Source: a virus. Taken from it: 35,656 bases of DNA. The stretch spans positions 1 through 35,656 of the IMG/VR virus record IMGVR_UViG_3300047560_001146, one strand, 5' to 3'. Positions 30,239 to 35,303 of the stretch are shown piece after piece; the stretch's first letter is position 1; each line of letters opens with the position of its first letter. A model generated the notes under the pieces. The model did not search any database, was not told the origin of the DNA, and saw nothing but the letters and a program-made list of their open reading frames with translations. The translations under genes were made by a program, and so were the position numbers.

Positions 30239-30624
30239 TGCCTGATTTATTCAGAGAAATTATACCATCAATCTTACAGAACAAAAAGAATGTATTTGAA
30301 AATGGTATTTACTCAGATTACAATCCTTTTATTGTAAACCGGGCTTTATCCTATCATCTCGATTGTCTTCCATATGTTGCTGAATTGTCAATGTTATCAC
30401 ACCTTGATAAAGATATGCAATATCAGTACCTTATAAATACAATAAGGTCTTATAAACGCCCATTCCATAAATGGCAAAAAGTAGAGACTGTGGAAGATTT
30501 AGAATGTGTTAAAACCTATTTTGGTTACTCCAATCAAAAAGCAAAGGAAGCATTACGCATTCTCAACAATGAACAAATCGCTGAGATAAGAAAAAAAACG
30601 GACAAAGGCGGAGTGAAGAAGTAA
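30238..30624 (+). CDS. gp62: Clamp loader small subunit gp62
   Basis: A 128-aa protein in the gp62 position, shorter than T4 gp62 (187 aa) as in other marine T4-like phages. Characteristic segments are EIIPSILQNKKNVFENGIYS, DYNPFIVNRALSYHLDCLPY and QYQYLINTIRSYKRPFHKW. It is one-base coupled to gp44 before it and to regA after it, giving the classic 44-62-regA order. Confidence 0.92.
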   Translation: MPDLFREIIPSILQNKKNVFENGIYSDYNPFIVNRALSYHLDCLPYVAELSMLSHLDKDMQYQYLINTIRSYKRPFHKWQKVETVEDLECVKTYFGYSNQKAKEALRILNNEQIAEIRKKTDKGGVKK

Positions 30625-31028
30625 TGATTAACATTTCAAATTTAGTTGAAGTACGATTAATTGAGGAGGATGATTTTCTAAAAGTCAGAGAAACACTGAC
30701 TCGTATTGGTGTGGCCTCAAAAAAAGACAAGATACTGTATCAGTCTTGTCATATATTGCACAAGCAAGGACACTACTATATCGTACATTTTAAAGAATTA
30801 TTTTCGTTAGATGGTAAACCTACTGACATTTCTGAAAATGATTTGGCTCGTAGAAATGCAATTGCTAAATTATTGGAAGATTGGGGTCTTGTTGAAATTG
30901 TAAATAAGAAACAGATTGAGACTCCAGAACCTATTTTCTTGTCGCAGATCAAGATCATATCACACAAAGAAAAAGGTGAATGGGAATTAGTTCCGAAATA
31001 CAACATCGGAAAGAAAAAAGTCGTATAA
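30624..31028 (+). CDS. regA: RegA translational repressor
   Basis: A 134-aa homologue of T4 RegA (122 aa), an RNA-binding repressor of early mRNAs that acts at translation start regions. The match is strong: DFLKVRETLTRIGVASKKDK, LYQSCHILHKQGHYYIVHFK, LLEDWGLVEIV and GEWELVPKYNIG. The stop codon lies inside a perfect late promoter, so the regA end doubles as a regulatory site for the hsp20 unit. Confidence 0.95.
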   Translation: MINISNLVEVRLIEEDDFLKVRETLTRIGVASKKDKILYQSCHILHKQGHYYIVHFKELFSLDGKPTDISENDLARRNAIAKLLEDWGLVEIVNKKQIETPEPIFLSQIKIISHKEKGEWELVPKYNIGKKKVV

Positions 31029-31031
31029 ATA
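31024..31031 (+). promoter_or_regulatory. Perfect late promoter TATAAATA over the regA stop
   Basis: Exact late consensus including the regA TAA. If transcription starts a few bases downstream of the box, as in T4, the transcript begins around 31037, precisely at the first hairpin of the structured leader upstream of hsp20. Confidence 0.75.
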
Positions 31032-31036
31032 ATTAT

Positions 31037-31141
31037 ATCCCTCGGGATGGGACGCAAAGATCCACCTTAGGATCGTCTTGCCGTAGGAGCGTATGCCTAC
31101 TCCGGATCGGTAACCGGAACTATCACGCCTTCGGGGTGATA
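31037..31141 (+). ncRNA. Structured leader RNA upstream of hsp20 (possible riboswitch-like element)
   Basis: About 105 noncoding bases form five consecutive hairpins. A: ATCC/GGAT (31037-31048). B: GAC + GATCC / GGATC + GTC (31051-31077), with a five-base GCAAA bulge on the 5' side. C: GTAGG/CCTAC (31083-31100). D: TCCGG/CCGGA (31101-31118). E: TATCAC(G)CC/GGGTGATA with a UUCG loop (31121-31141). The bulge bases GCAA could also pair with TTGC at 31078-31081. The segment GGGACGCAAAG equals a stretch of the c-di-GMP-I riboswitch core as I remember it, but the other half of that core is absent. Cyanophage cis-regulatory RNA families such as manA or wcaG are candidates; I cannot confirm any. Confidence 0.65.
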
Positions 31142-31176
31142 CTTTAACATTAACTCGCTTTAATAGGAGAACTAAA

Positions 31177-31626
31177 ATGACACATGCATATGGCAGAAAT
31201 CTGCTTCCTCTATCTGTTGGTTTTGACCATCTTCTCTCTACTCTTCAAGAATTCGAAGATATTGCCAAGCCATCAACATATCCTCCATACAATATTGTAA
31301 AGTTTGATGAAGATAATTATCAGATTCAAATTGCAGTTGCAGGATTTGGTCCTGATGAACTTGAAATTGAAGTGAAGGAAAACAAACTCACAGTAAATGG
31401 TGAAATTAAATCTGCATACACTTCAGATGTACAATTTCTACACCACGGTCTTGCATCCAGAGACTTCTCACACACGTTTAGATTGTCTGACACTGTTGTT
31501 GTAAAGACAGCTGATATTGTTAATGGTGTATTGAAGATTGATCTAGAGAATGTACTACCAGAAGAGAAGAAACCTCGCAAAATTCCTATTGGAAATGAAC
31601 CTCTCTTGACTTCTGACAAGAAGTAA
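31177..31626 (+). CDS. hsp20: Small heat-shock protein Hsp20 (IbpA-type)
   Basis: A 149-aa alpha-crystallin-domain chaperone. The domain runs from about residue 37 (PPYNIVKFDEDNYQIQIAVA) through GPDELEIEVKENKLTVNGEI and HHGLASRDFSHTFRLSD to NGVLKIDLENVLPEEKKPRK. The A-x-x-x-F-x-L and G-x-L motifs of the family are present. Hsp20 genes are common in cyanophages and other aquatic T4-like phages and are thought to stabilise proteins during infection. Its ribosome site (TAGGAG) is outside the hairpins of the leader, so it does not look like a classical RNA thermometer. Confidence 0.92.
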   Translation: MTHAYGRNLLPLSVGFDHLLSTLQEFEDIAKPSTYPPYNIVKFDEDNYQIQIAVAGFGPDELEIEVKENKLTVNGEIKSAYTSDVQFLHHGLASRDFSHTFRLSDTVVVKTADIVNGVLKIDLENVLPEEKKPRKIPIGNEPLLTSDKK

Positions 31627-31634: not shown

Positions 31635-31661
31635 AGGGGGAAGAAATTCCCCCTTTTTTTA
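31635..31661 (+). terminator. Rho-independent terminator after hsp20
   Basis: An 8-bp stem AGGGGGAA / TTCCCCCT with a GAAA tetraloop and a run of seven or more T. It ends the hsp20 transcript. Confidence 0.92.
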
Positions 31662-33226: not shown

Positions 33227-33301
33227 GGTGACTGTGGTGTAATGGTAGCACCTCTCTCTGTGAAAGAGAAAGCACGGGATCGATACCCGTCAGTCACCCC
33301 A
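33227..33301 (+). tRNA. tRNA-His (GTG)
   Basis: Anticodon loop CTGTGAA on a TCTCT/AGAGA stem. The extra 5' G pairs with the C before an encoded CCA, as is typical of His tRNA. First gene of the array; a weak promoter-like TTGTTA-16-TATAGA lies at 33186-33213. Confidence 0.9.
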
Positions 33302-33302
33302 A

Positions 33303-33378
33303 GCCGGTTAAGCTAATCTGGTGAAAGCGCTTGTCTGAAGAACAAGAGAGCGTGGATCAAAACCACGAACCGGCACCA
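33303..33378 (+). tRNA. tRNA-Phe (GAA)
   Basis: Acceptor GCCGGTT/AACCGGC, anticodon loop CTGAAGA on CTTGT/ACAAG, CCA encoded. Only one base separates it from tRNA-His. Confidence 0.92.
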
Positions 33379-33383
33379 ATTTT

Positions 33384-33457
33384 GGGTCTTTGGTGAAATG
33401 GAATCACACCCTCCTTACAAGTGGGAGTCAGCGGATCGATACCGTTAAGACCTACCA
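33384..33457 (+). tRNA. tRNA-Val (TAC)
   Basis: Acceptor GGGTCTT/AAGACCT, anticodon loop CTTACAA, CCA encoded. The anticodon stem CCCTC/GTGGG has one T-T mismatch. Confidence 0.82.
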
Positions 33458-33465
33458 AACAAAAT

Positions 33466-33542
33466 GCCCTTGTAGTGAAATGGAATTATCACGCATCGCT
33501 ACGGACGATGTATTGTGGGTTTGAATCCTGCCGAGGGTGCCA
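33466..33542 (+). tRNA. tRNA-Arg (ACG)
   Basis: Acceptor GCCCTTG/CGAGGGT with two wobbles, anticodon loop CTACGGA on CATCG/CGATG. The A34 would need host TadA editing to inosine to read CGU/CGC/CGA. CGT is the main Arg codon of the capsid gene. Confidence 0.85.
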
Positions 33543-33548
33543 ATTTAT

Positions 33549-33637
33549 GGAGGGTTATGTAACCTGGGATGTTACGTCTGGTTTGAACCCAGAGCGAGCC
33601 GAAAGGCCAGGAGTTCGATTCTGCCATCCCTCCGCCA
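33549..33637 (+). tRNA. tRNA-Ser (TGA)
   Basis: Class II tRNA with a variable arm GCC-GAAA-GGC and anticodon loop TTTGAAC on TCTGG/CCAGA. The D-arm stem GTAAC/GTTAC is unusual. The T-arm stem has mismatches and the seventh acceptor pair is poor, so it may be partly degenerate. Confidence 0.75.
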
Positions 33638-33762
33638 ATTATAGGAGAAAAGAAATGGGGAGTACGAGTATTTAAATTATCAATATGTTGTTGATGATTA
33701 TACATTATACACATATACGGATTTTATGAGTGACTTCATCATATTTTTTTCTTTTAGTTTTT
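33638..33762 (+). other. Gap in the tRNA array with a ribosome site and mini-frame
   Basis: This 125-base spacer is the longest noncoding gap in the array. ATAGGAGAAAAGAAATG at 33641-33657 looks like a good translation start, but the frame ends after six codons (MGSTSI). The rest is AT-rich without a tRNA fold that I can see. It may be the stub of a lost gene. Confidence 0.35.
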
Positions 33763-33849
33763 AGAAGATGATATCAGATGGTTCTGATACTTGCTTGGAA
33801 AGCAATGTGGTCCGAAAGGGCTGGGGCTCGATTCCTCCGTCTTCTGCCA
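33763..33849 (+). tRNA. tRNA-Ser (GGA)
   Basis: Class II: acceptor AGAAGAT/GTCTTCT, anticodon loop TTGGAAA, variable arm TCC-GAAA-GGG, CCA encoded. The outer anticodon-stem pair is mismatched. Confidence 0.82.
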
Positions 33850-33858
33850 ATTCAAAAC

Positions 33859-33946
33859 GGAAGATTAATCAGTTGGGAACTGGAACGGTTTGCTAAACCA
33901 GTTGAACCTGCAAGGGTTTGGGGATCGAGACCTCAGTCTTCCGCCA
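33859..33946 (+). tRNA. tRNA-Ser (GCT)
   Basis: Class II: acceptor GGAAGAT/GTCTTCC, anticodon loop TTGCTAA with only three strong stem pairs (GGT/ACC), variable arm around AACCTGCAAGGGTT, CCA encoded. It completes the serine codon set with the two other Ser tRNAs. Confidence 0.78.
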
Positions 33947-33952
33947 ATTTAT

Positions 33953-34029
33953 GGTAGTGTGTCCGAATGGGAAGGAAGCTGATTGCAAATCAGTTATGTT
34001 TGCGGGTTCGAATCCTGTCACTACCTCCA
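33953..34029 (+). tRNA. tRNA-Cys (GCA)
   Basis: Acceptor GGTAGTG/CACTACC, anticodon loop TTGCAAA on CTGA/TCAG, T-loop GGTTCGAATCC, CCA encoded. Confidence 0.9.
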
Positions 34030-34041
34030 AACAAAAAGTGC

Positions 34042-34070
34042 TTGACAAGGAAGACACTCTAGTGTATAAT
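34042..34070 (+). promoter_or_regulatory. Perfect sigma70 promoter inside the tRNA array
   Basis: TTGACA at 34042-34047, exactly 17 bases, TATAAT at 34065-34070. It lies between tRNA-Cys and tRNA-Glu and would start transcripts near 34077, about 20 bases before tRNA-Glu. It divides the array into an upstream group of eight tRNAs and a downstream group with strong host-polymerase expression. Confidence 0.9.
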
Positions 34071-34097
34071 ATCTTCCATCAAGTGAGAGAAAGTTAT

Positions 34098-34174
34098 GGA
34101 CCTGTCGTCTACTTGGTTTAGGATACAAGATTTTCACTCTTGTGAACGGAGTTCGAATCTCCGCAGGTCTACCA
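34098..34174 (+). tRNA. tRNA-Glu (TTC)
   Basis: Acceptor GGACCTG/CAGGTCT, Glu-like D-arm (TCGTCTA), anticodon loop TTTTCAC on CAAGA/TCTTG, CCA encoded. Confidence 0.9.
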
Positions 34175-34180
34175 AACAAT

Positions 34181-34266
34181 GCGTAAGCGCCGGAGTGGGA
34201 GAGCCGGGCCAGACTGTAAATCTGTTGTCTCTGACTGAATAGGTTCGAATCCTATATTACGCACCA
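34181..34266 (+). tRNA. tRNA-Tyr (GTA)
   Basis: Class II tRNA with anticodon loop CTGTAAA on CAGA/TCTG, a variable arm (TTGTCTCTGACTGAATA region), acceptor GCGTAA/TTACGC and encoded CCA. Confidence 0.88.
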
Positions 34267-34271
34267 ATTTT

Positions 34272-34346
34272 GAGAGTGAAGCTTTAATGGTGAAGCATCT
34301 GGCTCTTAACCAGACGAAGAGGGATCGTTACCTTCCACTCTCACCA
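34272..34346 (+). tRNA. tRNA-Lys (CTT)
   Basis: Acceptor GAGAGTG/CACTCTC, anticodon loop CTCTTAA on TCTGG/CCAGA, CCA encoded. Confidence 0.9.
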
Positions 34347-34349
34347 AAT

Positions 34350-34472
34350 GTGTTGCAACTAATGTCGGTGCTGTCGTTCTCCCGACTTAAAATAACCGTT
34401 AATACCAGAATGAATATCAACTAGGTTCGAAACTAGAAGAGACACGGACTGGAGTAGGTAACAACGACACCA
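34350..34472 (+). ncRNA. Unresolved tRNA-like element ending in CCA
   Basis: This segment fills the slot between the two Lys tRNAs and ends AACGACACCAA like its neighbours. The 3' strand pairs with TGTCGTT at 34372-34378 (7 bp), giving a roughly 100-base element. With a bulge it also pairs with GTGTTG at 34350-34355. A T-loop-like GGTTCGAAAC occurs at 34424-34433, but 30 bases before the 3' strand instead of next to it. No T-arm adjoins the acceptor and no clear anticodon arm is found. A further nested pairing is CCAG (34405)/CTGG (34449). It could be a decayed tRNA, a tRNA with an insertion or a distinct RNA processed with the array. Confidence 0.5.
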
Positions 34473-34479
34473 ATTTTTT

Positions 34480-34553
34480 GGGGGTGTAATTCAATGGTAG
34501 AATAACTGGCTTTTAACCAGTCCACCGTGGTTCGATTCCACGTACCCCTACCA
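34480..34553 (+). tRNA. tRNA-Lys (TTT)
   Basis: Acceptor GGGGGTG/TACCCCT, anticodon loop CTTTTAA on ACTGG/CCAGT, T-arm GTGG-TTCGATT-CCAC, CCA encoded. Confidence 0.92.
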
Positions 34554-34558
34554 ATATT

Positions 34559-34632
34559 GCCCGATTAGTTCAAAGGTAGAACACGCAACTGATAATTGCG
34601 AAACGTTGGATCGATACCATCATTGGGCACCA
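34559..34632 (+). tRNA. tRNA-Ile (GAT)
   Basis: Acceptor GCCCGAT/ATTGGGC, anticodon loop CTGATAA on CGCAA/TTGCG, CCA encoded. Confidence 0.9.
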
Positions 34633-34637
34633 AATTT

Positions 34638-34731
34638 GTCTCTATAGTGTAACGGTAGCACTCCGGCTTTATACTCCGGCATGGCCCCAGATTAGGGCGT
34701 AGTGTAGGTTCGAATCCTACTAGAGACACCA
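34638..34731 (+). tRNA. Long-variable-arm tRNA, probable Ile (TAT)
   Basis: A 94-base tRNA with sound acceptor (GTCTCTA/TAGAGAC), T-arm (GTAGG-TTCGAAT-CCTAC) and CCA. The best anticodon stem CCGGC/TCCGG (one C-T mismatch) gives loop TTTATAC and anticodon TAT, reading the AUA codon. A 24-base variable region with hairpin GCCC/GGGC is class II-like, which is unusual for isoleucine. Confidence 0.65.
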
Positions 34732-34736
34732 ATTGA

Positions 34737-34810
34737 AGAGGATTAGGCTAGTGGTAAACCTTGGGATTCATATTCCTATATCATCAGTTCGATTCTGATA
34801 TCCTCTACCA
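34737..34810 (+). tRNA. tRNA-Met or Ile2 (CAT)
   Basis: Acceptor AGAGGAT/ATCCTCT, anticodon loop TTCATAT on TGGGA/TCCTA, T-arm ATCAG-TTCGATT-CTGAT, CCA encoded. Sequence alone does not tell elongator Met from a lysidine-modified Ile tRNA; it is not an initiator type. Confidence 0.85.
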
Positions 34811-34816
34811 AACAAT

Positions 34817-34892
34817 GGGTATGTAGTAATCTGGTGATTACGCTTGTCTGTCGAACAAGTTTAGGAGGGTTCGATCCCCTTCATACCCGCCA
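34817..34892 (+). tRNA. tRNA-Asp (GTC)
   Basis: Acceptor GGGTATG/CATACCC with G discriminator, anticodon loop CTGTCGA on CTTGT/ACAAG, CCA encoded. Confidence 0.9.
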
Positions 34893-34898
34893 ATTTAA

Positions 34899-34976
34899 TG
34901 TGCCTTAGCGATCACGGTGATTGCATCTCGCTGTTAACGAGAATGAAGCTCAGTTCGATTCTGAGAGGCACAGCCA
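34899..34976 (+). tRNA. tRNA-Asn (GTT)
   Basis: Acceptor TGTGCCT/AGGCACA, anticodon loop CTGTTAA on TCTCG/CGAGA, G discriminator, CCA encoded. Confidence 0.92.
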
Positions 34977-34982
34977 ATTTAT

Positions 34983-35058
34983 CTCTGTAAAGTGTTACTT
35001 GGCAGCATACTCCGTTTGGGGCGGAGTGGTGAAGGTTCAAATCCTTCTACGGAGACCA
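34983..35058 (+). tRNA. tRNA-Pro (TGG)
   Basis: Acceptor CTCTGTA/TACGGAG, anticodon loop TTTGGGG on CTCCG/CGGAG, T-arm GAAGG-TTCAAAT-CCTTC, CCA encoded. Confidence 0.9.
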
Positions 35059-35063
35059 AATAT

Positions 35064-35138
35064 GGGGACAGTAATGGGTTACGGAGTTGCCTTGCAAGCT
35101 ACTTGTCTAGAAGGGTTCGATTCCCTCGGTCTCCACCA
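35064..35138 (+). tRNA. tRNA-Ala (TGC)
   Basis: Acceptor GGGGAC(A)/(G)GTCTCC, anticodon loop CTTGCAA on GTTGC/GCTAC (one mismatch), CCA encoded. The canonical G3-U70 identity wobble is present: the third acceptor pair is G35066 with T35132. Confidence 0.85.
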
Positions 35139-35143
35139 ATTAT

Positions 35144-35220
35144 GATCTTATCGTCTAGAAGGTTAAGGACACTGGTCTCTCAAACCGGAAAATTGGGTTC
35201 GATCCCCAATAAGATCACCA
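35144..35220 (+). tRNA. tRNA-Glu (CTC)
   Basis: Acceptor GATCTTA/TAAGATC, Glu-type D-arm (TCGTCTAGAAGG), anticodon loop CTCTCAA on CTGGT/ACCGG, CCA encoded. Second Glu tRNA, covering GAG. Confidence 0.88.
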
Positions 35221-35226
35221 AATGAT

Positions 35227-35303
35227 GCGGATATAGCCCAATTGGCAGAGGCGGTAGGTTCAAACCCTACTCAGTGTCAGTTCAAATCTGACTATCCGTA
35301 CCA
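35227..35303 (+). tRNA. tRNA with Leu anticodon (CAA) but short variable loop
   Basis: Acceptor GCGGATA/TATCCGT, anticodon loop TTCAAAC on GTAGG/CCTAC, T-arm GTCAG-TTCAAAT-CTGAC, CCA encoded. The variable loop is only five bases (TCAGT), whereas bacterial leucine tRNAs are class II with a long arm. Decoding of UUG is predicted; charging identity is uncertain. Confidence 0.8.

Follow-up and report, generated by a model that had tools for sequence, protein, structure and literature searches.

A conserved pseudoknotted RNA and a probable ROSE-like RNA thermometer in the late hsp20 leader of T4-like aquatic phages

Introduction

The leader of T4 gene 32 has a 5′ pseudoknot in a phage mRNA that affects translation or stability, and the leader described here may be likened to it in having a pseudoknot at the 5′-end; the structure and the gene differ. 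Structured 5′-leaders in T4-like phages also include the manA RNAs (RF01745), which in cyanophages precede ibpA chaperone genes, among others (PMC2864571), and so provide the nearest precedent. Also close are the ROSE-like RNA thermometers of bacteria, of which the hallmark is a U(U/C)GCU sequence that pairs imperfectly with the Shine-Dalgarno (SD) sequence (PMC3669281). With the short Pseudomonas ibpA thermometers and Rfam family ROSE_3 (RF02523), the leader of a phage-encoded small heat shock protein (sHSP) gene, hsp20, shares a 3′-module that is made of two hairpins and leads into an sHSP gene, a hairpin with a YGCC...GGG top, and a U(U/C)GCU sequence, with a bulged G, facing the SD. Unlike these bacterial elements, it is phage-borne, follows a late promoter rather than a sigma-32 promoter, scores below the family cut-off and has a long pseudoknotted domain in front. 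The kind of thermometer is already known from bacteria, and the leader provides a probable phage example; in a search of open-access papers, subscription papers lying outside its range, we found no report of RNA thermometers for phage hsp20 genes.

Results

The hsp20 locus and its leader

The DNA analysed (the window, all 35,656 nt of IMG/VR record IMGVR_UViG_3300047560_001146, a 35.7-kb viral contig) represents part of the genome of a large T4-like phage that infects aquatic bacteria; no DNA similarity match between the window and isolate phages was found. Genes that, from reading the ORFs, we take to encode the sliding clamp and the clamp loader are followed by regA (30624–31028, stop codon 31026–31028; Pfam Translat_reg, E = 6.1e-47), the leader, and hsp20 (31177–31626, + strand; Pfam HSP20, E = 4.8e-18; PHROG 432 Hsp20). 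The hsp20 transcript is closed by an intrinsic terminator with an 8-pair stem and a U-tract (31635–31661, +), beyond which come two small ORFs and a cupin gene (32043), then a gene resembling dCMP deaminase and a cluster of tRNA genes. Fifteen tRNA genes are located within ~2 kb (33228–35300). The earlier note on this DNA had linked the leader to the cupin, described as ManA-like, but as the terminator and two ORFs intervene, the cupin gene probably belongs to another transcript and its control by the leader appears unlikely.

An exact match to a T4-type late promoter, TATAAATA, which the earlier note had recognized, is positioned at 31024–31031 (+), overlapping the regA stop codon. There are eight copies of this sequence in the window versus 2.5 expected, as many being present in one of 100 shuffles, and relatives have kept [N]ATAAATA or CTAAATA at the promoter position. 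Based on the spacing of T4 late promoters, which we take to apply here, transcription is expected to start at ~31037, immediately ahead of the first hairpin (31038), in agreement with the 5′-end that had been placed at that hairpin. Folding predicted the five consecutive hairpins described in the note (31038–31052, 31059–31074, 31083–31100, 31101–31118 and 31121–31141), together with a sixth, weak hairpin (31154–31169), not counted there, that contains the SD. Folded as one sequence, the leader has an ordinary energy (z = −1.17; 23 of 200 shuffles as good), so the number of hairpins by itself proves nothing, and conservation was therefore tested. The note had proposed that covariation be sought in homologous leaders, and it is this covariation, present in the pseudoknotted core, as two-sided changes, and in hairpin I of the ROSE-like module, that establishes the leader structure as real. 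The leader, which extends up to hsp20, is noncoding, has multiple hairpins and consists of two modules, the core (31053–31118) and the ROSE-like module (31121–31176). Its interpretation as a conserved structured RNA thus stands, whereas the two-module construction and the main functional clue, the likeness to ROSE thermometers, had been missed.

The 5′-terminal hairpin, predicted by folding as UCCC-UCGGGAU-GGGA (31038–31052, +), is kept in many relatives as UCNCxUCGRGAUGGGA, with pairing that is only partial (67.9% of cells in alignment A4). Two other roles for the leader were considered and rejected. The region might have encoded a conserved peptide, which the note had named as an observation that would overturn its reading, but no start codon is kept and the open frame shifts between relatives. 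A second possibility, that the leader is antisense to 23S rRNA, arose because ACCUUAGGANCGU can pair with a segment that is universal in 23S rRNA. The best leader–rRNA duplexes are no better than those of shuffled leaders; complementarity of the leaders to 16S and 23S rRNA is at the chance level set by shuffled leaders (for the window, 103 of 300 shuffles were as good).

A search with Hsp20 identified at least 80 viral loci, and pattern scans greatly enlarged the set of leaders, the counts of which are lower bounds. Some viral sHSP leaders have nothing but the promoter and a short 3′-module (L003 and L067 among them), some have an H-type pseudoknot and the 3′-module (L011, L064 and L071), and some have the invariant CCUUAGG and a GUAA loop (the window, L002, L007 and L008, with longer forms in L012–L061).

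A pseudoknotted core RNA

The core (31053–31118, +; covariance model R1) is composed of hairpins A, B and C and a pseudoknot, PK1. Hairpin A (GAUCC-ACCUUA-GGAUC; 31059–31074, +), preceded by the stretch ACGCAAAG that had been noted earlier, has a loop, CCUUAGG, that is unchanged or almost unchanged in every relative. Hairpin B (GUAGG-AGCGUAUG-CCUAC; 31083–31100, +) has two-sided changes at four of its five pairs within the window clade and at all five in other clades. Two-sided changes are present at three of the five pairs of hairpin C (UCCGG-AUCGGUAA-CCGGA; 31101–31118, +) in alignment A3, and its closing pair in the window clade is U-A, G-C or C-G. PK1 is formed by GCC (31080–31082, +) and the GGU of a CGGUAA sequence inside loop C (31109–31111, +), and this pairing also covaries. 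The key pair is present in 43 of 43 relatives, as G-C in 18, C-G in 13 and U-A in 12, and alignment A3 has 15 GC, 12 UA and 4 CG pairs at this position. A second pseudoknot, between CGU (31074–31076, +) and GCG in loop B (31089–31091), is possible; it is paired in nearly all relatives, yet hardly varies and so is not proven.

Among 31 sequences from other clades, 99.6% of the cells in the core are paired, as compared with 84.0% when shuffled, where paired cells are counts of sequences rather than independent events. Two-sided change is present at nine pairs in these sequences, none of 500 shuffles attains this result, and when the structure is slid along the alignment the pairing falls to 22–50%. 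Model R1, from which the window clade had been left out, matches the window at 31056–31118 with 33.3 bits (E = 2.4e-6), and its sole match in 584 kb of decoy contigs has 12.6 bits (E = 0.83). Near the hsp20 genes of isolate phages R1 found nothing, and the core matches no Rfam family. Covariation demonstrates the core structure, and the core is a well-supported structured RNA family, undescribed as far as Rfam 15 shows.

Gene contexts of the core

There are at least ~170 distinct copies of the core, of three types, and the neighbour on the upstream side is most often regA. Nearly all of the copies that have sufficient sequence on the downstream side lead into the ROSE-like module and then into an sHSP gene or a gene for a 74-aa phasin-like protein, behind which an sHSP gene is usually next. 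The designation phasin-like is a weak one (Pfam Phasin_2, E = 0.0086, below cut-off); genes of this type (74–76 aa), with a core-ROSE leader and often with hsp20 next, are present in L208, L220, L247, L258 and many other contigs. Three matches to the core search string that lack both continuations (L332, L355 and L401) appear to be chance matches within genes.

On at least seven contigs the core is located beside regA with neither the ROSE-like module nor hsp20 on the stretch examined. In L177, L191 and L480, which are one lineage, the core comes after a CATAAATA promoter, and in L493, L506, L557 and L562 it comes directly behind the stop codon of regA, no late promoter being present there; in L557 a U-tract follows hairpin C. 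In L140 and L073, hsp20 has a late promoter of its own, and the core stands ahead of that promoter, next to regA. Given these arrangements, the core and the thermometer are separable modules, and a core that is kept beside regA without hsp20 and ROSE must have a role of its own. In other phages, a different H-type pseudoknot or nothing is present where the core would stand.

Several further arrangements were observed. The H-type pseudoknot module follows GGGAUGGG in the leaders of L024, L021, L013, L011 and L064, with stems that vary strongly and stay complementary. In L047, a tmRNA gene (2516–2932; above cut-off with both the beta_tmRNA and the permuted tmRNA model) is directly upstream of the hsp20 late promoter, approximately the position of the core in other phages. 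A partial match to the core, its B-C part (21.6 bits, E = 0.0016), is present on the minus strand of L449, from a 262-kb phage contig (G004), downstream of an alanine-rich ORF and with an intrinsic terminator directly after it. A weak core-like match (19.3 bits) lies at ~1501–1544 of L451, beside a tRNA pair, on a contig (G010) that also has the L140 core. Short ORFs that resemble, by eye, pqqA (PQQ precursor peptide) are located beside the leader, upstream of hsp20 in L081 and upstream of the core in L234, L394 and L428, which suggests methylotroph hosts.

A ROSE-like 3′-module

The first hairpin of the 3′-module, hairpin I (31121–31141, +), has an outer stem, UAUCAC/GUGAUA, and a YGCC...GGG top that is the same as in Rfam ROSE_3. 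The outer stem covaries, with 298 of 325 cells paired in 65 distinct stems (shuffle mean 186, maximum 210). In hairpin II (31154–31169, +), UCGCU (31155–31159) faces the SD, AGGAG (31165–31169), with G31157 bulged. All leader types have the YGCC...GGG-topped hairpin, followed by AACUCGCUU...AAGGAG...AUG. Among loci picked by protein similarity alone, every one of the 37 distinct sHSP leaders had the ROSE motif upstream of the SD, compared with 6 of the 208 remaining ORFs (p = 6e-38). It also precedes hsp20 in eight of the nine isolate phages examined, namely S-PM2, P-RSM4, P-TIM40, HTVC008M, HTVC115P, Melnitz-3, C48C1 and Atu_ph07 (L453–L458, L460 and L461), S-TIM5 being without it; these eight, which are cultured or named, would make a convenient set for tests. 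A search of 84,980 bacterial and archaeal species genomes for the pattern of hairpin 3′-end, motif and SD found it three times, twice ahead of an sHSP gene.

ROSE_3 is the top Rfam match in the window, at a sub-threshold 14.9 bits versus a cut-off of 43, and is also the top match in L208, L012, Melnitz-3 and C48C1; the relative L073 is over the gathering cut-off (44.1 versus 43 bits). As its score is below the cut-off, the window module is designated ROSE-like rather than a member of ROSE_3. It has the motif facing the SD, a covarying hairpin upstream and a position directly before hsp20, and from its resemblance to ROSE-like elements, the 3′-module is very probably an RNA thermometer that would melt as they do. 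Nearest-neighbour folding from 4 to 42 °C, a model that is poor for the non-canonical pairs of ROSE elements, gave the SD an unpaired probability of 0.20 at both ends of the range and ~0.15 between, a prediction of almost no opening that counts against the thermometer.

Discussion

The reading that we favour, and regard as reasonably probable, is that of a composite 5′-UTR of a late mRNA, with a ROSE-like thermometer as its 3′-half and a pseudoknotted end-block as its 5′-half. At low temperature, UCGCU and its neighbours would pair with the SD and translation would be held back; warming would melt this weak, G-bulged helix and Hsp20 would be made. The core would be a structural block, shielding the late hsp20 (or phasin-like) mRNA at its 5′-end and, if no late promoter intervenes, the regA mRNA at its 3′-end. 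RNA-end stabilization is our guess as to the role of the core, which stands after the late promoter, at the predicted 5′-end. The core may also form the 3′-terminal region of regA RNA, in keeping with its place right behind regA, with no late promoter or hsp20, in L493, L506, L557 and L562 and with the U-tract in L557; the exchange of the core for a different H-type pseudoknot, or for nothing, fits a generic mechanical role better than it fits one fixed ligand. The invariant core loops, CCUUAGG, CG and GUAA, count against an end-block, as their conservation exceeds the needs of a mere mechanical block, and so allow for recognition of a ligand or a protein, or for action in trans. It may instead be, although we would not expect it, that the core is a widespread family of pseudoknotted phage RNAs, anchored between regA and the hsp20 or phasin-like genes of T4-like aquatic phages, with its own function as a ligand sensor or trans-acting RNA, and that with the ROSE thermometer it forms a two-input leader.

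More specifically, the core could act as a riboswitch aptamer of a new kind, or as a site bound by a protein regulator, and set the level of Hsp20 together with the thermometer. In favour of this is the compact pseudoknotted fold, in which loop bases are invariant across clades and the stems vary, and structured leaders, the manA motif, are known before ibpA-type genes in T4-like cyanophages (PMC2864571). However, unrelated pseudoknots, or nothing, take the place of the core before orthologous genes, the core is still found next to regA where hsp20 and any obvious expression platform are lacking, and no Rfam aptamer matches it. We consider this reading unlikely, and ligand binding, which the earlier note had suggested for the leader, is for the core an unsupported possibility.

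That the core is released from the transcript as a small RNA and acts in trans, using the exposed ACCUUAGG loop for its seed, appears distinctly unlikely. The loop is conserved and the core is kept without hsp20, the L557 core has its U-tract after hairpin C, and a terminator follows the partial B-C match (21.6 bits) in G004/L449, all of which are consistent with such an RNA. In the window, however, there is no terminator between the core and hsp20, and the complementarity of the leader to rRNA is that of shuffled sequences (103 of 300 as good); the RNA is a candidate only.

The 3′-module, in turn, might be a constant translation element of late genes and not a thermometer. The motif also precedes the phasin-like gene, which is not an obvious heat-shock gene although an sHSP gene is usually next, isolated cases of the motif alone stand before other genes, and the temperature response in silico is weak. 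But the motif is nearly confined to sHSP genes (37/37 versus 6/208 other genes), the two bacterial copies stand before sHSP genes, and the anatomy is the same as in the tested ROSE-like thermometers of Pseudomonas ibpA (PMC3669281). A constant element is, on this evidence, very improbable.

Finally, it is hardly conceivable that the leader is a divergent member of the manA, wcaG or GEMM-I families, as the earlier note had suggested, since a search of the whole of Rfam with 221 nt and an E-value limit of 10 matched none of these and returned only ROSE_3 and freshwater-2. The suggestion drew on the 11-mer GGGACGCAAAG, which is indeed present (31049–31059) and is all that is shared with the c-di-GMP-I riboswitch (GEMM-I, RF01051), the second half of which is absent; relatives have not kept the 11-mer, having GCAUAG, GCACAGG, GUAAAG or nothing in its place. 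manA RNAs do precede ibpA chaperone genes in cyanophages (PMC2864571), but manA is a 192-nt RNA with a different architecture and other conserved strings, and its 192-position covariance model gave no candidates in the window record, with P-RSM4 as a positive control at 171.5 bits. A sub-threshold manA-like RNA (25.9 bits, E = 0.0018) was observed before an ORF in the pelagiphage HTVC008M (L464, 5037–5223).

The persistence of the core family without hsp20 calls for a function. With a composite leader that combines the core and a probable thermometer, our analysis indicates that phages place their own chaperone genes under RNA thermometers of a bacterial type, and the response of phages to the warming of lakes and seas becomes directly testable in phages that are in culture, S-PM2 and HTVC008M among them.
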